In this document: one piece after another, positions 56,436 through 62,856 of the stretch | How positions within the stretch are numbered: the first letter of the stretch is position 1 | Layout of the letters: each line of letters begins with the position of its first letter | Source: Streptosporangium brasiliense | GTDB lineage: Bacteria; Actinomycetota; Actinomycetes; Streptosporangiales; Streptosporangiaceae | Assembly: GCF_030811595.1 (NCBI RefSeq) | Contig: NZ_JAUSRB010000002.1 | Location: 4,526,001 to 4,590,000 of the forward strand | DNA length: 64,000 bases | Reading direction: 5' to 3' | Made by a program: the position numbers and the translations under genes | The notes under the pieces: model-generated | The model's database searches: none | What the model saw: only the letters and a program-made list of their open reading frames with translations | What the model was told of the DNA's origin: nothing

Positions 56436-56476
56436 GCCCAACCGGTCAGGTGATCGGCTGAGCCCCACCGGTCAGG
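56429..56476. repeat. 26-bp tandem duplication across two stop codons
   Basis: The block cggctgagccc[a/c]accggtcagg occurs at 56429-56450 and again at 56455-56476, offset 26 bp. The first copy holds the TGA of the putative anti-sigma gene; the second runs into the convergent stop codon of the cbiX-like gene. Confidence 0.8.
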
Positions 56477-57230
56477 CCGTCGCGAAGGCCCTCTCCCGCC
56501 GCACCGCCTGCTCGTAGCGTTCGATCAGCACGGCCGCGAGCTCGGGGGCGGCGCCCAGCACGTCGGCGACGGCCCCGGCGCCCGCGGCCAGGCTGTCACG
56601 GCGGATCTTGTCGGCGAAGTGGCCCGGGGCCAGCAGGTAGGGGGCCACCACCACGCGCGGGGCGCCGGCCGACAGGAGCCGCCGGACCTCCTGCGCGGGG
56701 GTGGGCTCGGCGGCCGAGGCGTAGGCCGCGGTCACCGACCACCAGCCGCGCCCGGCCCACTCTCCGGCCATCCCCGCGACCGTCGCGTTGGCCCGCCGGT
56801 CGCTGGAGCCGGCCGAGACCAGCACCACGGCGGTGCCGGGGTCGCCGGAGGCCACCCCGGCCTCCGCCAGGCGCCGCTCCAGGGCGGTCAGCAGCAGGGG
56901 GTGCGGGCCCAGGGTGGCGCCCCGGTGCACGCGCAGCAGCGGGCGGCGGGCCGTCACCTCGGCGAGCGCGCCGGGGATGTCCACGCGGCTGTGGTAGGCC
57001 TCGGTGAGCAGCAGCGGCAGCACCGCCGCCTCGGCCAGCCCGGACAGCGCCATGGGGAGCGTCGGGGGAGCGTGGTCGAGGTAGGCGGTGCGCACGGGGA
57101 TCTCGGGGCGTGCCCGCCGTACCAGGTCGAGCAGGTCCTCCACCGTCGCGGCGGCGCGCGGGTCACGGGACCCGTGCGCCACCGCGACCAGCGGGACCGC
57201 CGGCGCCGTGCCGTGGACGCGCCACGTCAT
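56472..57230 (-). CDS. Sirohydrochlorin chelatase/CbiX-like protein
   Basis: This 252-residue protein has the CbiX/SirB pattern in duplicate: VPLVAVAHGSRDPRAAATVE at the N-terminus with the metal-binding His, LPLLLTEAYHSRVDIPGAL with a second His, then a second half with AVVLVSAGSSDRRANATVAG and VVVAPYLLAPGHFADKIRRD. It would insert Fe2+ into sirohydrochlorin to make siroheme, the cofactor of the sulfite reductase encoded in the same operon. The ATG at 57230 overlaps the cysH stop (ATGA). It is the last gene of the operon. Confidence 0.9.
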   Translation of the reverse strand: MTWRVHGTAPAVPLVAVAHGSRDPRAAATVEDLLDLVRRARPEIPVRTAYLDHAPPTLPMALSGLAEAAVLPLLLTEAYHSRVDIPGALAEVTARRPLLRVHRGATLGPHPLLLTALERRLAEAGVASGDPGTAVVLVSAGSSDRRANATVAGMAGEWAGRGWWSVTAAYASAAEPTPAQEVRRLLSAGAPRVVVAPYLLAPGHFADKIRRDSLAAGAGAVADVLGAAPELAAVLIERYEQAVRRERAFATA

Positions 57231-57964
57231 AGATGCAGCCCGCATTCCGTCTTCGCCATCCCGGCCCAGCGCCCGCTGCGCGGGTCCTCGCCCGGGGCGA
57301 CCTGGCGGGTGCAGGGGGCGCAGCCGATCGAGGGGTAGTTGTCGTAGTGCAGCGGGTTGATGAGCACGCCGTTGTCGGCCATGTAGTTGTCGACGTCGTC
57401 CTGCGTCCACCGGGCGATCGGGTTGATCTTGACCATCTGGCGCTTGGCGTCCCACTCCACGACCTTGACACCGGCGCGGGTGGCGGCCTCGTCGCGGCGG
57501 ATGCCGGAGACCCAGGCGAGGTAGGGCTCCAGCGCCCGGTTGAGCGGTTCCACCTTGCGCAGGTAGCAGCACAGGTCGGGGTTGCGCCCGAACAGGCGCG
57601 GACCCAGGTCGCGTTCCTGCTCGGCCACCGTCCGGGACGGCTTCACGTCGATCACGTTGACGTCATAGACCTGCCGCACGGCGTCACGGGTGCCGATCGT
57701 CTCGGCGAAGTGGTAGCCGGTGTCGATGAACAGCACGTCGACACCGGGTTTGACCCGGCTGACCAGGTCGATCAGCAACGCGTCGCTCATCGAGGAGGTC
57801 AGGCAGAGCCGGTCGCCGAAGGTGGCCGCGGCCCAGCGGATGATCTCCAGGGCGGAGGCGTCCTCCAGGAACTGCGCGGCCGACTCGACGATGTCCTGCA
57901 GGTCGAGCGCGCCGCGCTGCTGTCGTAGTCCGACTTCTATGTCCACCAGTGTCATGTCGCTCAC
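57227..57964 (-). CDS. cysH: Phosphoadenylyl/adenylyl-sulfate reductase (APS-type)
   Basis: This 245-residue enzyme reduces activated sulfate to sulfite. It has the PP-loop-like SSMSDALLIDLVSRV, the Cys pair in DLCCYLRKVEPLNRAL and the second Cys pair in SIGCAPCTRQV, which together hold a [4Fe-4S] cluster typical of APS-using reductases, plus the C-terminal catalytic Cys in ECGLHL. Hence APS rather than PAPS is the likely substrate, and no cysC is needed. The GTG at 57964 overlaps the stop of a 26-codon gene (GTGA) and has GAGGAG just before it; ATG 57955 is an alternative start. Confidence 0.94.
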   Translation of the reverse strand: MSDMTLVDIEVGLRQQRGALDLQDIVESAAQFLEDASALEIIRWAAATFGDRLCLTSSMSDALLIDLVSRVKPGVDVLFIDTGYHFAETIGTRDAVRQVYDVNVIDVKPSRTVAEQERDLGPRLFGRNPDLCCYLRKVEPLNRALEPYLAWVSGIRRDEAATRAGVKVVEWDAKRQMVKINPIARWTQDDVDNYMADNGVLINPLHYDNYPSIGCAPCTRQVAPGEDPRSGRWAGMAKTECGLHL

Positions 57965-58041
57965 CACTCCTCGTTCGCCACGCAGGCCGCCCGTGCCTCG
58001 CCGGCCACCGCGCTCACCGCGCCGGGCTCGCTCCGCGTCAT
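57961..58041 (-). CDS. 26-residue coupling gene between the zinc-ribbon microprotein and cysH
   Basis: ATG at 58041 to TGA at 57961 gives 26 residues beginning MTRSEPGAVSAV and ending ACVANEEW. Its ATG overlaps the stop of the upstream 47-residue gene (ATGA) and its stop overlaps the GTG of cysH (GTGA), so all three form an unbroken chain of start-stop overlaps. CGGAG lies seven bases before the ATG. The peptide has no recognised motif. Function could be purely to couple translation of cysH to the upstream gene. Confidence 0.55.
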   Translation of the reverse strand: MTRSEPGAVSAVAGEARAACVANEEW

Positions 58042-58215: not shown

Positions 58216-59898
58216 TCACTTGAGGTCCGTCTCGTCGGCCCGCTGGACCCAGTCGGAGAAGGTCTCGCCGTCGTTCTTCTGCTTCTCGAAGTTGCGCACG
58301 ACGCGCTCCACGTAGTCGGGCAGCTCCTCGGCCGTGGCCTTCAGGCCGCGGACCTTGCGGCCGAAGCCCGGGTTGACGCCCAGGGAGCCGCCCAGGTGGA
58401 TCTGGAAGCCCTCGACCTGCTCGCCCCTGTCGTTGACGACGAGCTGCCCCTTGAGGCCGATGTCGGCGACCTGGATGCGCGCGCAGGAGTTGGGGCAGCC
58501 GTTGACGTTGATGGTCAGCGGCTCCTTGAAGTCCGGCAGGCGCTGCTCCAGCTCGTCGATCAGGTCGGAGGCGGTGGCCTTCGTCTCGACGATCGCCAGC
58601 TTGCAGAACTCGATGCCGGTGCAGGCCATGGTCTGGCGGCGGAAGGTGGAGGGGTTGACCCGCAGGTCGTTGGCCTCCAGCTCGGCGACGACGCTGTCGA
58701 CCCGGTCGGGCGCGACGTCGAGGATGACCATCTTCTGCTCGACCGTGGTGTGCACCCGGTCCGAGCCGTGCCGCTGGGCGATGTCGGCGATCAGGTGCAG
58801 CTTGTCGCCGTCGAGGCGGCCGACCCTGGGCGCGAAGCCGACGTAGAAGTTGCCGTCCTTCTGCGGGAAGACGCCCACGTGGTCGCGGCGCCCGCCACGC
58901 GGCTGCTCCGGCGCGGGGCCGTCGGGCAGCGCGTACCCCAGGTATTCCGTCTCGAGGATCTCCCTGAACTTCTCCACGCCCCAGTCGTTGACCAGGAACT
59001 TGATCCGGGCCCGGTGGCGCAGGCGGCGGTAGCCGTAGTCGCGGAAGATGCCGATCACGCCGCCCCAGACCGGGGTGACCTGCTCGGGGGTGACGAAGAC
59101 GCCCAGCCGCTTGGCCAGCATGGGGTTGGTCGACAGGCCGCCGCCGACCCACAGGTCGTAGCCCTTCTCGCCCCGCTCGTTGACCACGCCCACGAAGGCG
59201 ATGTCGTTGATCTCGTGCACGGTGCAGTGCGCCGGGCAGCCGCTGACCGCGGTCTTGAACTTGCGCGGCAGGTTGGAGAAGGCCGGGTCGCCGATGTAGG
59301 TGTCGTAGATCTCGTCGATCTGCGCGGTGCCGTCGAGGACCTCGTTGTCGTCGATCCCGGCCAGCGGGCAGCCCAGGATGACGCGCGGGGTGTCGCCGCA
59401 GGCCTCGGTGGTGGACAGGCCCACCGCCTCCAGCCGCTTCCAGATGTCGGGGACGGCCTCGATCTCGATCCAGTGGAGCTGGATGTTCTGGCGGTCGGTG
59501 ACGTCGGCGGTGCCCCGGCCGTAGAGGTTGGAGATGTCGGCGATGGCGCGGAGCTGCTCCAGGTTGAGCCGCCCGCCGTCGATCCGGACCCGGAGCATGA
59601 AGTAGCGGTCGTCGAGCTCCTCCGGCTCCAGGATCGCGGTCTTGCCGCCGTCGATCCCGGGCTTGCGCTGGGTGTAGAGCCCGTACCAGCGCATCCGGCC
59701 CCGCAGGTCGGCGGGGTCGATGGAGTCGAAACCGTTCTTGGCGTAGATGTCGATGATCCGCTGACGGACGTTGAGCCCGTCGTCGTTCTTCTTGTTCTCC
59801 TCGTTCTTGTTCAGCGGTTCGCGGTAACCGAGAGCCCACTGACCTTCGCCTCGCGGGCGCTTGTGGTGGCGGTTAGCCGGCTTGGCCGGGGTCGTCAT
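58216..59898 (-). CDS. sir: Ferredoxin-dependent sulfite reductase
   Basis: This 560-residue siroheme/[4Fe-4S] enzyme reduces sulfite to sulfide. The cluster and siroheme ligands are Cys426, Cys432 (ACTGIEFC) and Cys468, Cys472 (NGCPNSC). Two nitrite/sulfite-reductase half-domains are seen, with DVTDRQNIQLHWIEIEAVPD in the first. The N-terminus (RHHKRPRGEGQWALGYREPL) is as in actinobacterial SirA/NirA. The ATG 59898 follows GAAGGA by six bases. A leader peptide with adjacent Cys codons lies upstream, pointing to control by cysteine supply. Ferredoxin as donor is known for this family; nitrite reduction cannot be excluded. Confidence 0.94.
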   Translation of the reverse strand: MTTPAKPANRHHKRPRGEGQWALGYREPLNKNEENKKNDDGLNVRQRIIDIYAKNGFDSIDPADLRGRMRWYGLYTQRKPGIDGGKTAILEPEELDDRYFMLRVRIDGGRLNLEQLRAIADISNLYGRGTADVTDRQNIQLHWIEIEAVPDIWKRLEAVGLSTTEACGDTPRVILGCPLAGIDDNEVLDGTAQIDEIYDTYIGDPAFSNLPRKFKTAVSGCPAHCTVHEINDIAFVGVVNERGEKGYDLWVGGGLSTNPMLAKRLGVFVTPEQVTPVWGGVIGIFRDYGYRRLRHRARIKFLVNDWGVEKFREILETEYLGYALPDGPAPEQPRGGRRDHVGVFPQKDGNFYVGFAPRVGRLDGDKLHLIADIAQRHGSDRVHTTVEQKMVILDVAPDRVDSVVAELEANDLRVNPSTFRRQTMACTGIEFCKLAIVETKATASDLIDELEQRLPDFKEPLTINVNGCPNSCARIQVADIGLKGQLVVNDRGEQVEGFQIHLGGSLGVNPGFGRKVRGLKATAEELPDYVERVVRNFEKQKNDGETFSDWVQRADETDLK

Positions 59899-60046
59899 TT
59901 GCGCGTCCTTCGGATCGATGGAGTGATTTCCGGACACGCACAGACGGCACCTACCGCCTCATCGTCGAGTGCGGGGGTTGCTTGCTCACAAGAAGGAGGA
60001 CGCCTGTCGCGCGCCCGAGCTGGGTGAAATCAGCGGAGGGCGACGG

Positions 60047-60130
60047 TCAACGGACGTCACAACAGATGGCACTGCGGACACGCAAGAGGTCGACGTGGCG
60101 TCGCACGACGAGCAATGGGTCCGCTGGCAT
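60047..60130 (-). CDS. Cys-codon leader peptide of the sulfite reductase operon
   Basis: The 27-residue open frame from ATG 60130 to TGA 60047 ends with RRHVDLLRVRSAICCDVR. The RRHVDL...SAICC pattern is that of actinobacterial Cys-rich leader peptides known upstream of sulfur-assimilation genes, with the Cys23-Cys24 pair near the end. AGGGA lies close before the ATG. Ribosome stalling at the Cys codons when cysteine is short is expected to favour expression of sir-cysH. The 148 bases between leader and sir contain the sites for the decision; no folding was run. Confidence 0.8.
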   Translation of the reverse strand: MPADPLLVVRRHVDLLRVRSAICCDVR

Positions 60131-60236
60131 GTCCCTGACGATACCTTGGTCGACTGAGATGTCCAATGTCGGGTCCACACTCTGGACTGTCTCCAGGCTC
60201 AACCTTGGTCCGCGGGCCCGGTTCCGGCTGTCCGGA

Positions 60237-62735: not shown

Positions 62736-62749
62736 TCCGCTATCGTCTA

Positions 62750-62822
62750 AGACGCGACTGGCGCATTGGGTGGGAGGGACCACCGGGGAGCGTAATGGCG
62801 AAGGCCGTGCGCCTGGGTCTTC
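62750..62822 (+). ncRNA. ZTP (pfl) riboswitch in the glyA leader
   Basis: The glyA leader contains gcgactggcg (62754-62763), gggaccaccggggagcg (62776-62792) and ccgtgcgcctgggt (62805-62818) in the order and spacing of the ZTP/pfl motif, whose conserved parts read GACUGGCG, ACCACCGGGGAGCG and CCGCCUGGG. The motif is known upstream of glyA and one-carbon/purine genes in actinobacteria. It senses ZMP/ZTP, which builds up when 10-formyl-THF is short, and would raise glyA expression. It ends 34 bases before the glyA ATG. Confidence 0.88.
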
Positions 62823-62856
62823 GCGACGTCAACGACGACAGAGGAGTGAAGGCCCC

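Follow-up and report, generated by a model that had tools for sequence, protein, structure and literature searches.

How does the sulfite reductase operon of the soil actinobacterium Streptosporangium brasiliense use a reading frame of only 27 codons that lies just upstream of its first gene and contains cysteine codons near its end? We analyzed this frame in a 64,000-nt stretch of DNA (contig NZ_JAUSRB010000002.1, positions 4,526,001 to 4,590,000), referred to below as the window, for which a preliminary description had proposed a Cys-codon leader peptide controlling sir-cysH. The frame lies on the minus strand 5' of sir-cysH-cbiX, at a distance of 148 nt from the sir ATG (Table 1). Its peptide scored 30.8 bits against the NCBIfam model NF042934 ('putative leader peptide'; cut-off 27), so the frame is not a chance one, and the basic idea of a leader at this site is therefore already known. 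By profile score there is no difference from NF042934, which is annotated as cis_reg_atten; as a protein profile, it does not cover codon spelling and RNA stems. The peptide fell below the cut-offs of the Cys-rich leader models NF042936 (leader_Ms4527A; 20.6 against 45) and NF042933, and so stands outside the Ms4527A family, whose leader presumably precedes sirA-cysH. A Pfam search with the peptide gave no match, and an Rfam search of the leader region gave no family at gathering level or at E<=1. The sir product matched the NCBIfam nitrite/sulfite reductase group models, all below their cut-offs, and its best named relative is from Streptosporangium minutum (96%). The sir start codon was taken as the ATG at 59898-59896, although translation might also begin further upstream at a GTG (59937). 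Elsewhere in the window, a ZMP/ZTP riboswitch (RF01750, 52.9 bits, 62744-62825, plus strand) lies directly 5' of a frame that by eye encodes a glyA-type serine hydroxymethyltransferase.

Table 1. Features of the leader region and of the operon, in the order in which the minus strand is read (positions in the window).
Feature	Position	Strand	Remarks
Predicted -35 element TTGGAC (TGGACA in the other register)	60161..60166	minus	read from sequence
Predicted -10 element TATCGT	60138..60143	minus	ends 7 nt before leader ATG
Leader ORF, 27 codons and stop	60047..60130	minus	translation MPADPLLVVRRHVDLLRVRSAICCDVR
RRHVDL block codons	60086..60103	minus	pN/pS 0.10 for R(R/L)HVDLxR, family set
Leader stretch GCGTGTCC (GCGUGUCC), codons 16-19	60076..60083	minus	complementary to sir Shine-Dalgarno stretch GGACGCGC
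Anchor Cys codon UGU (Cys23)	60062..60064	minus	11 codons after His12
RNA segment 1 (leader tail)	60038..60058	minus	5' arm of terminator-like hairpin
RNA segment 2 GGGCGCGCGACAGGCGTC	59999..60016	minus	partner of segment 1 in the terminator-like stem or of segment 3 in the antiterminator
Weak U-tract CTCCTTCTTG	59998-59989	minus	directly after segment 2
Conserved hairpin between segments 2 and 3	59954..59974	minus	RNAalifold on alignment A1
RNA segment 3	59932..59946	minus	pairs with segment 2 or sir Shine-Dalgarno region
sir Shine-Dalgarno region AAGGACGCGC	59901..59910	minus	can pair with segment 3 or leader
sir, NirA/SirA-type sulfite reductase	58216..59898	minus	PF01077, PF03460
cysH, phosphoadenylyl/adenylyl-sulfate reductase	57227..57967	minus	PF01507; NF002537 over cut-off
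CbiX-type sirohydrochlorin chelatase, start uncertain	56472..57200	minus	PF01903; NCBIfam chelatase models below cut-offs

The frame is kept in relatives. A family set was assembled from 61 genomes of 60 genera of the organism's own family, the own genome included; sir was present in 59 of these, and all 58 testable sir loci carried the leader frame, 57 of them with the Cys, one locus (L048) being cut by a contig end. Together with the NF042934 score, this bears out the preliminary description in that the frame is real and constitutes a conserved leader of the cysteine type at sir-cysH, whose sequence is related, by profile scores, to the mycobacterial leader models. Across the class, sir was present in 112 of 148 sampled genomes and an NF042934 match over the cut-off in 96 of the 148. 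Among 104 further class sir loci outside the family set (some from additional members of the own family, e.g. L099-L101), the leader frame was found in 86, with Cys at the anchor place in 83, one codon later in 2 and no Cys there in 1; 3 of the 104 loci were cut by contig ends (the cut loci of both sets being L048, L135, L146 and L180), no such frame was found in 15, and the sir loci G140 and G201 do not enter these counts. At three of the 15 (L207, L209 and L234) the leader precedes cysH on the opposite strand, divergent from a sir for which no leader was found. Furthermore, the frame preceded sir in 80 of 80 loci of a named-genome set, and in a phylum sample of 119 genomes, which contains some class members, only one weak match lay outside the class. 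The NF042934-type leader family is thus common in the class. Other copies of the leader precede genes that by eye resemble cysK/cysM-type, sulfurtransferase, cystine-symporter, sulfonate-ABC and cysH genes; the leaders of L073, L095, L096 and L098 belong to sir and were excluded from this other-gene set. At L005 and L248 the leader precedes an apparent 2-oxoacid:ferredoxin oxidoreductase subunit gene, which has no obvious link to cysteine. At L001 (1483-2166; G000:C2:8031478) the leader RHHVDLCRVASALC is fused in frame, with no stop, to what by eye is the C-terminal part of a TauD-like dioxygenase, and a 5S rRNA-like sequence (by eye) follows the fusion.

The preliminary description had pointed to two adjacent Cys codons in the leader. 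The window leader does have two, but only the first is conserved: a second Cys directly follows the anchor in 8 of 57 family leaders, and 43 of the 57 have a single Cys codon from the H to the stop. The unit is one codon and not the pair, and this codon is spelled UGU in every examined leader that has this Cys. At the anchor position, 11 codons past the histidine (or alanine) of the HVD motif, UGU was found in 231 of 231 leaders (57/57 family, 83/83 class and 91/91 other-gene leaders; 216 distinct 60-nt cores), all selected by a protein motif with obligatory H (at other genes also A and a few more), V or I (also L or M at other genes), D, R or H at -6, and Cys at the anchor. In the named genomes, which were scanned with no residue prescribed at this place, the anchor codon was UGU in 80 of 80 leaders, 47 of which are new relative to the 231. 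In comparison, UGU accounts for 44 of the 238 other Cys codons in the same 231 leader frames (Fisher 4e-89 versus the anchor) and for 17 of 424 Cys codons in 54 sir coding sequences, and the third base is T in 96 of 695 NNY codons in the same block. Chance or codon bias as the source of the fixed spelling was excluded by these three controls. Since the codons flanking the anchor are variable and the anchor itself lies outside the stems described below, we saw no base-pairing need for its U. The distance from UGU to the stop is mostly 1-6 codons.

Departures from the anchor rule were few. In L181 and L185 the Cys (TGT) stands one codon past the anchor position, and HVD frames lacking the anchor Cys are those of L061 and L161 (Cys at other positions only) and a second frame in L083. 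L061 keeps RRHVDFLRIRSAI and has CCC where the anchor Cys codon stands elsewhere. The second leader-like frame of L083, RRHIDLLRVCSAI, lies on the reverse strand near base 232 and has its TGA stop precisely where the anchor codon would be, as though TGT had mutated to TGA. A further regularity of spelling was seen at codon -3, where Ser is encoded by AGY in 126 of the 129 sir leaders that have Ser there, compared with about 24% AGY in sir genes; this may reflect descent, AGY to TCN being two steps, or an additional constraint.

What could set UGU apart from UGC? The own genome carries three tRNA-Cys genes, all with anticodon GCA (of 60 tRNA genes, 7 of 82-90 nt were not read and one was left unassigned). 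With a single tRNA-Cys species, UGU would be read by G-U wobble and should therefore be the slower Cys codon. Passages of PMC4046918 report that for Cys tRNA, among others, NNC is translated faster than NNU, and that this bias is strongest for codon pairs served by one tRNA whose base in the third-position pair is G. Selective charging of tRNA isoacceptors, given in part of PMC1183508 as an earlier explanation for codon choice in attenuator leaders, cannot explain the fixed UGU, because there is one tRNA-Cys species in the one genome checked.

Selection on the leader acts at the level of the peptide. In the family set, pN/pS by nearest-pair comparison was 0.15 when the DNA was read in the coding frame, compared to 2.0 and 6.2 when it was read in the other two, and the differences fell 22/8/80 on the three codon positions. 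The corresponding values were 0.29 versus 1.6 and 1.9 for the class set and 0.29 versus 1.2 and 3.5 for the other-gene leaders; in these two sets the conservation of residues is partly a product of selecting the sequences and pN/pS is biased low, because the motif fixes several residues. The family set is free of this caveat, as the frame is accounted for at every testable locus. Constraint was strongest over R(R/L)HVDLxR, with pN/pS of 0.10, 0.14 and 0.17 in the family, class and other-gene sets compared to 0.20, 0.55 and 0.42 for the tail. Moreover, Arg at -13, which the motif does not demand, was present in 230 of 231 leaders and was spelled CGC, CGA, CGT, CGG or AGG. Conservation of RRHVDL as RNA only was ruled out by the frame-specific pN/pS. 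The block is thus conserved as amino acids, and the peptide itself therefore probably matters; to this extent the preliminary description, which had ranked the block above the Cys run and suggested a role for the peptide beyond stalling, holds, with the run itself reduced to one codon. Taken together, the conserved residues and the fixed UGU suggest that peptide and codon spelling may both matter, beyond the mere presence of cysteine. Peptide-level selection is also the sole, and indirect, pointer to a possible stalling of the nascent chain of the kind seen with arrest peptides.

These data bear directly on a simpler explanation, that of plain starvation attenuation, in which only slow decoding of Cys matters and RRHVDL is kept for the RNA or by descent. 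Attenuators such as trp are not known to require peptide conservation other than at the regulated amino acid, which favors such a scheme, and two of the 15 sir loci without the leader frame (L157 and L194) contain several Cys codons but lack the HVDL block. Furthermore, codons -16 to -9 fold into a local hairpin in the RNAalifold output and codons -7 to -4 pair with the sir Shine-Dalgarno sequence, so that in the close group the coding region may in part be constrained as RNA. However, the variation within the block is synonymous and spares the amino acids, and we consider plain starvation attenuation unlikely as a full account.

The leader is probably the first thing transcribed. A promoter scan identified TGGACA-16-TATCGT (9/12; mean 0.1 in shuffles), and TGGACA, TTGGAC or TAGACA occurs at the same distance in 48/57 family leaders. 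A NANNNT motif whose end lies 6-7 nt 5' of a candidate start was found in 52/57 family, 69/83 class and 60/91 other-gene leaders, compared to 0-12, 0-12 and 1-17 in two-position controls. This recurring spacing of the predicted -10 element makes a leaderless transcript likely, with a putative start at or beside the leader ATG. An SD-like sequence preceded the candidate leader start in 4/57 family, 4/83 class and 18/91 other-gene leaders; in the distant members L065-L068 an SD is present instead (by eye).

We analyzed the RNA downstream of the anchor in two alignments. A1 comprises 20 hand-picked close leaders aligned from UGU to the sir ATG (L013, L021 and L023 excluded). A2, which is not independent of A1, comprises 28 sequences, namely the window and 27 of the 48 named loci L334-L381, which were assigned to 12 close genera by their given organism names; 17 loci with shorter spacers were left out, as were L376-L379, which had no start by the rule used. 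Segment 1 consists of GACGTC (60058-60053, UGU+6 to +11), GTTG (60051-60048) and, past the stop, CGCCC (60042-60038). In A1, stem 1:2 joins the last leader codons (GACGCC or GACGTC) and the stretch after the stop with segment 2, and RNAalifold unaided found most of this stem as well as the middle hairpin between segments 2 and 3, one pair of which is GC in 15 and AU in 5 sequences. Stem 1:2 was paired in 91.2% of cells in A1 and 96.6% in A2, and its covariation score was reached by 3/500 and 32/500 shuffles, respectively; in A2, pairs changed on both sides were not above the shuffles (1 vs 1.1). Stem 2:3 was paired in 89.3% of cells in A1 and 89.7% in A2, its score was reached by 2/500 and 3/500 shuffles, and in A2 it had 5 pairs changed on both sides, a number matched by 1/500 shuffles; segment 3 is misaligned in several rows of A2 (e.g. 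L341, L343 and L347), which lowers the 2:3 figures as well as those for 3:4 given below. These shuffle counts are not probabilities, because the sequences share ancestry and also served to derive the structures. The covariance analysis proposed earlier thus did yield alternative stems 3' of UGU that are conserved and show some covariation, weaker for 1:2 in A2, and a competing antiterminator, 2:3, whose formation excludes the terminator-like stem 1:2. Two alternative folds lay within 5 kcal/mol of each other in the 4 sequences compared (e.g. -61.9 and -63.9 in L010), and stem 1:2 was largely broken in L022 and L027.

The hairpin of the window (60058-59999) has a predicted energy of -28.0 kcal/mol. 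A strict terminator test, requiring a hairpin and a tract with 5 or more T in 8, failed in the window (4 T in 8) and in its closest relatives L334-L340; a looser scan allowing a shorter inner stem reported a terminator-like site in the window. The strict test was passed by 22 of the 48 named close loci (3.3 expected from shuffles), all sampled members of 7 of the 12 genera, and in 22 of 22 the 5' arm lies inside the leader, starting 3-8 nt after the first UGU base. Likewise, it was passed by 18 of 57 family loci (6.5 expected), 17 of these with the 5' arm at the leader end. The six-base arm after UGU has a downstream complement in 31 of the 48 named close loci (chance 6.4%); in 11 genera every locus has it (31/31), and in Nonomuraea none does (0/17). 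The Nonomuraea loci (L353, L355-L358, L360 and others) keep the leader and the UGU and have no complement to the hairpin arm, so their output step is probably different. Terminator-like hits were at chance level elsewhere, with 4/83 in the class set (3.0 by chance; three of the 4 are family members), 5/91 in other-gene leaders (5.5) and 2/32 in L382-L413 (3.0); the output step must therefore differ there.

A ribosome holding UGU in its A site would lie over the beginning of the arm. Removing UGU+6 to +11 changed the mean hairpin energy of 20 sequences from -25.6 to -17.0 kcal/mol, and a modelled ribosome mask at UGU reduced 1:2 pairing from 0.31 to 0.095 (p=0.0012, A1), with p=0.076 only for a rise of 2:3 and p=0.11 for a fall of 3:4 in the same alignment. 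A mask at the stop codon suppressed 1:2 more than one at UGU, and timing and release would therefore matter.

Rho-dependent attenuation would offer a different output: C-rich RNA after the stop recruits Rho, and a ribosome waiting at UGU hides it. C exceeded G in the 80 nt after the stop in 55/57, 81/82 and 29/30 family, class and other-gene leaders (30 of the 91 other-gene leaders counted), compared to 46%, 56% and 27% in an upstream comparison stretch, and the first 20 nt after the stop of sir leaders are 49.5% C and 22.1% G. This bias, present in all groups, is possibly a Rho entry site, and Rho would suit loci without a terminator. Rho was also suggested for mycobacterial cys leaders, in a prediction that its authors, in passages of PMC1262725, call rather weak. 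However, the close genera have a specific hairpin, followed by a U-run in 7 of 12, and an excess of C over G may be general for untranslated leaders in these organisms. A Rho-dependent output is, in our judgment, unlikely.

The leader can also reach the sir Shine-Dalgarno sequence itself. When the alignment was extended upstream, RNAalifold placed the SD complement at UGU-19 to -12, codons -7 to -4, opposite the stretch GGACGCGC (59908-59901); such a complement is one feature of a translation attenuator by uORF:SD pairing. Pairing was 8/8 in the window and 156/160 cells in A1, and runs of 7 or more pairs occurred in 17 of 20 A1 sequences (14% of shuffles), 38/57 family and 14/66 class loci. 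Covariation was almost absent, since the stretch varies little; peptide constraint acts on these leader bases as well. The alternative partner, segment 3, pairs with the SD (3:4) at 8/8 positions in the window and in 89.2% of cells in A1 and 82.2% in A2; no covariation was seen for 3:4 in A1, where its score was reached by 220/500 shuffles, compared to 14/500 in A2. A ribosome mask at UGU produced no change in modelled SD accessibility across 123 of 140 sir loci (p=0.83), and a wider mask gave no clear change in A1 (p=1.0), the family (p=0.058) or the class (p=0.21). Pairing of a uORF with the SD, broken by stalling, is described in part of PMC13236596 as a general scheme of translation attenuation, which the leader:SD pairing found here resembles. 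SD sequestration as the sole output was superseded by the T-rich tract after segment 2 and by the support for a terminator in related genera; SD masking is a fair candidate for a second output.

Altogether, we favor, at a probability of roughly 60%, a cis-acting, cysteine-responsive, ribosome-mediated attenuation at one slow codon, probably aided by the nascent peptide. The missing hairpin arm in Nonomuraea and the lack of a clear change in modelled SD accessibility lowered our confidence in this reading. The frame, the peptide-level selection, the invariant UGU, the pairing possibilities and the position of the hairpin are computed. The transcript would begin at the leader ATG or right beside it. 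Under a shortage of Cys-tRNA, the ribosome would wait with the single anchor UGU in its A site, and the R-R/L-H/A-V-D-L-x-R block, by then 6-13 residues back in the exit tunnel, would probably prolong the pause. The waiting ribosome would cover the end of the leader, whose final codons make up the 5' arm of a terminator-like hairpin that starts mostly 5-6 nt after UGU begins, and also the codons just 5' of UGU that are complementary to the sir SD. With hairpin and SD mask both hindered, segment 2 would be free for segment 3, and sir-cysH-cbiX would be made. When cysteine is ample, the ribosome would finish the leader and leave, hairpin and SD mask would form and expression would fall. What we infer is the stalling, the response to cysteine, the contribution of the nascent chain, the promoter and, as cellular events, termination or SD masking.

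TnaC-like sensing by the peptide, with free cysteine or some other small molecule detected inside the exit tunnel rather than a shortage of Cys-tRNA, appears very unlikely. The conserved R, D and R, which precede the arrest codon at constant distances, have a layout like that of arrest peptides, and L061 has the block but no Cys; the anchor Cys is present in nearly all leaders seen, however, and because a ribosome paused at UGU opens the operon in the predicted fold, stalling should accompany low and not high cysteine. That the 27-residue peptide is a trans-acting small protein is scarcely credible, for although its amino acids are strongly conserved, such a protein would need neither one synonymous codon fixed in all leaders seen nor a terminator arm built from its last codons.

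How does attenuation at a single anchor codon compare to known systems? In trp-type transcription attenuators, stems 1:2 and 2:3 are mutually exclusive and the leader codons adjoin segment 1. The stems 1:2 and 2:3 of the sir leader are mutually exclusive too; unlike in the trp type, the terminator-like stem is here 1:2, with its 5' arm inside the leader ORF, and segment 4 is the SD. Mycobacterial polycysteine leaderless sORFs were reportedly described by Canestrari and colleagues in 2020; both systems have a Cys leader, and a leaderless start is predicted here as well, whereas the mycobacterial attenuators have a run of Cys codons and the leaders here one to two. This precedent is referred to in passages of citing papers (PMC9094748, PMC9031893 and PMC13236596). 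Seliverstov et al. (2005) predicted cys leaders in Mycobacterium and P. acnes, according to parts of PMC1262725; these are likewise short ORFs with Cys codons near the stop, before cys operons, but in the passages concerned they have Cys-codon runs and no conserved terminator hairpin, in contrast to the one anchor and the terminator-like hairpin of the close genera. The cysS leader of Rhodobacterales, uORFC-8-2, is likewise portrayed in excerpts of PMC8632094 as a Cys-codon uORF with stems and an apparent terminator; it has two tandem Cys codons with UGC dominant, and this dominance in an alphaproteobacterial leader makes the rule found here, UGU throughout and in another phylum, stand out. 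Eight leader peptides are listed for Streptomyces lividans in the text taken from PMC8079986, none of them assigned there to cysteine. No statement of the fixed-UGU rule was found in the literature searched, and Canestrari et al. 2020 may contain one. We also found no description there of the peptide-level conservation of RRHVDL or of the leader-end hairpin arm in 11 of 12 close genera.

More tentatively, and at a confidence short of even, attenuation at one slow codon may extend to the whole class: the leaders would then be single-codon cysteine sensors of Actinomycetes, in which R-x-[HA]-V-D-L-x-R primes the ribosome and one obligatory UGU, read by wobble, times the pause. If this is true, changing UGU to UGC would break regulation even with protein and tRNA unchanged. 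The leaders provide a natural test of whether the wobble reading of one codon, together with the nascent chain, can set a metabolic switch.
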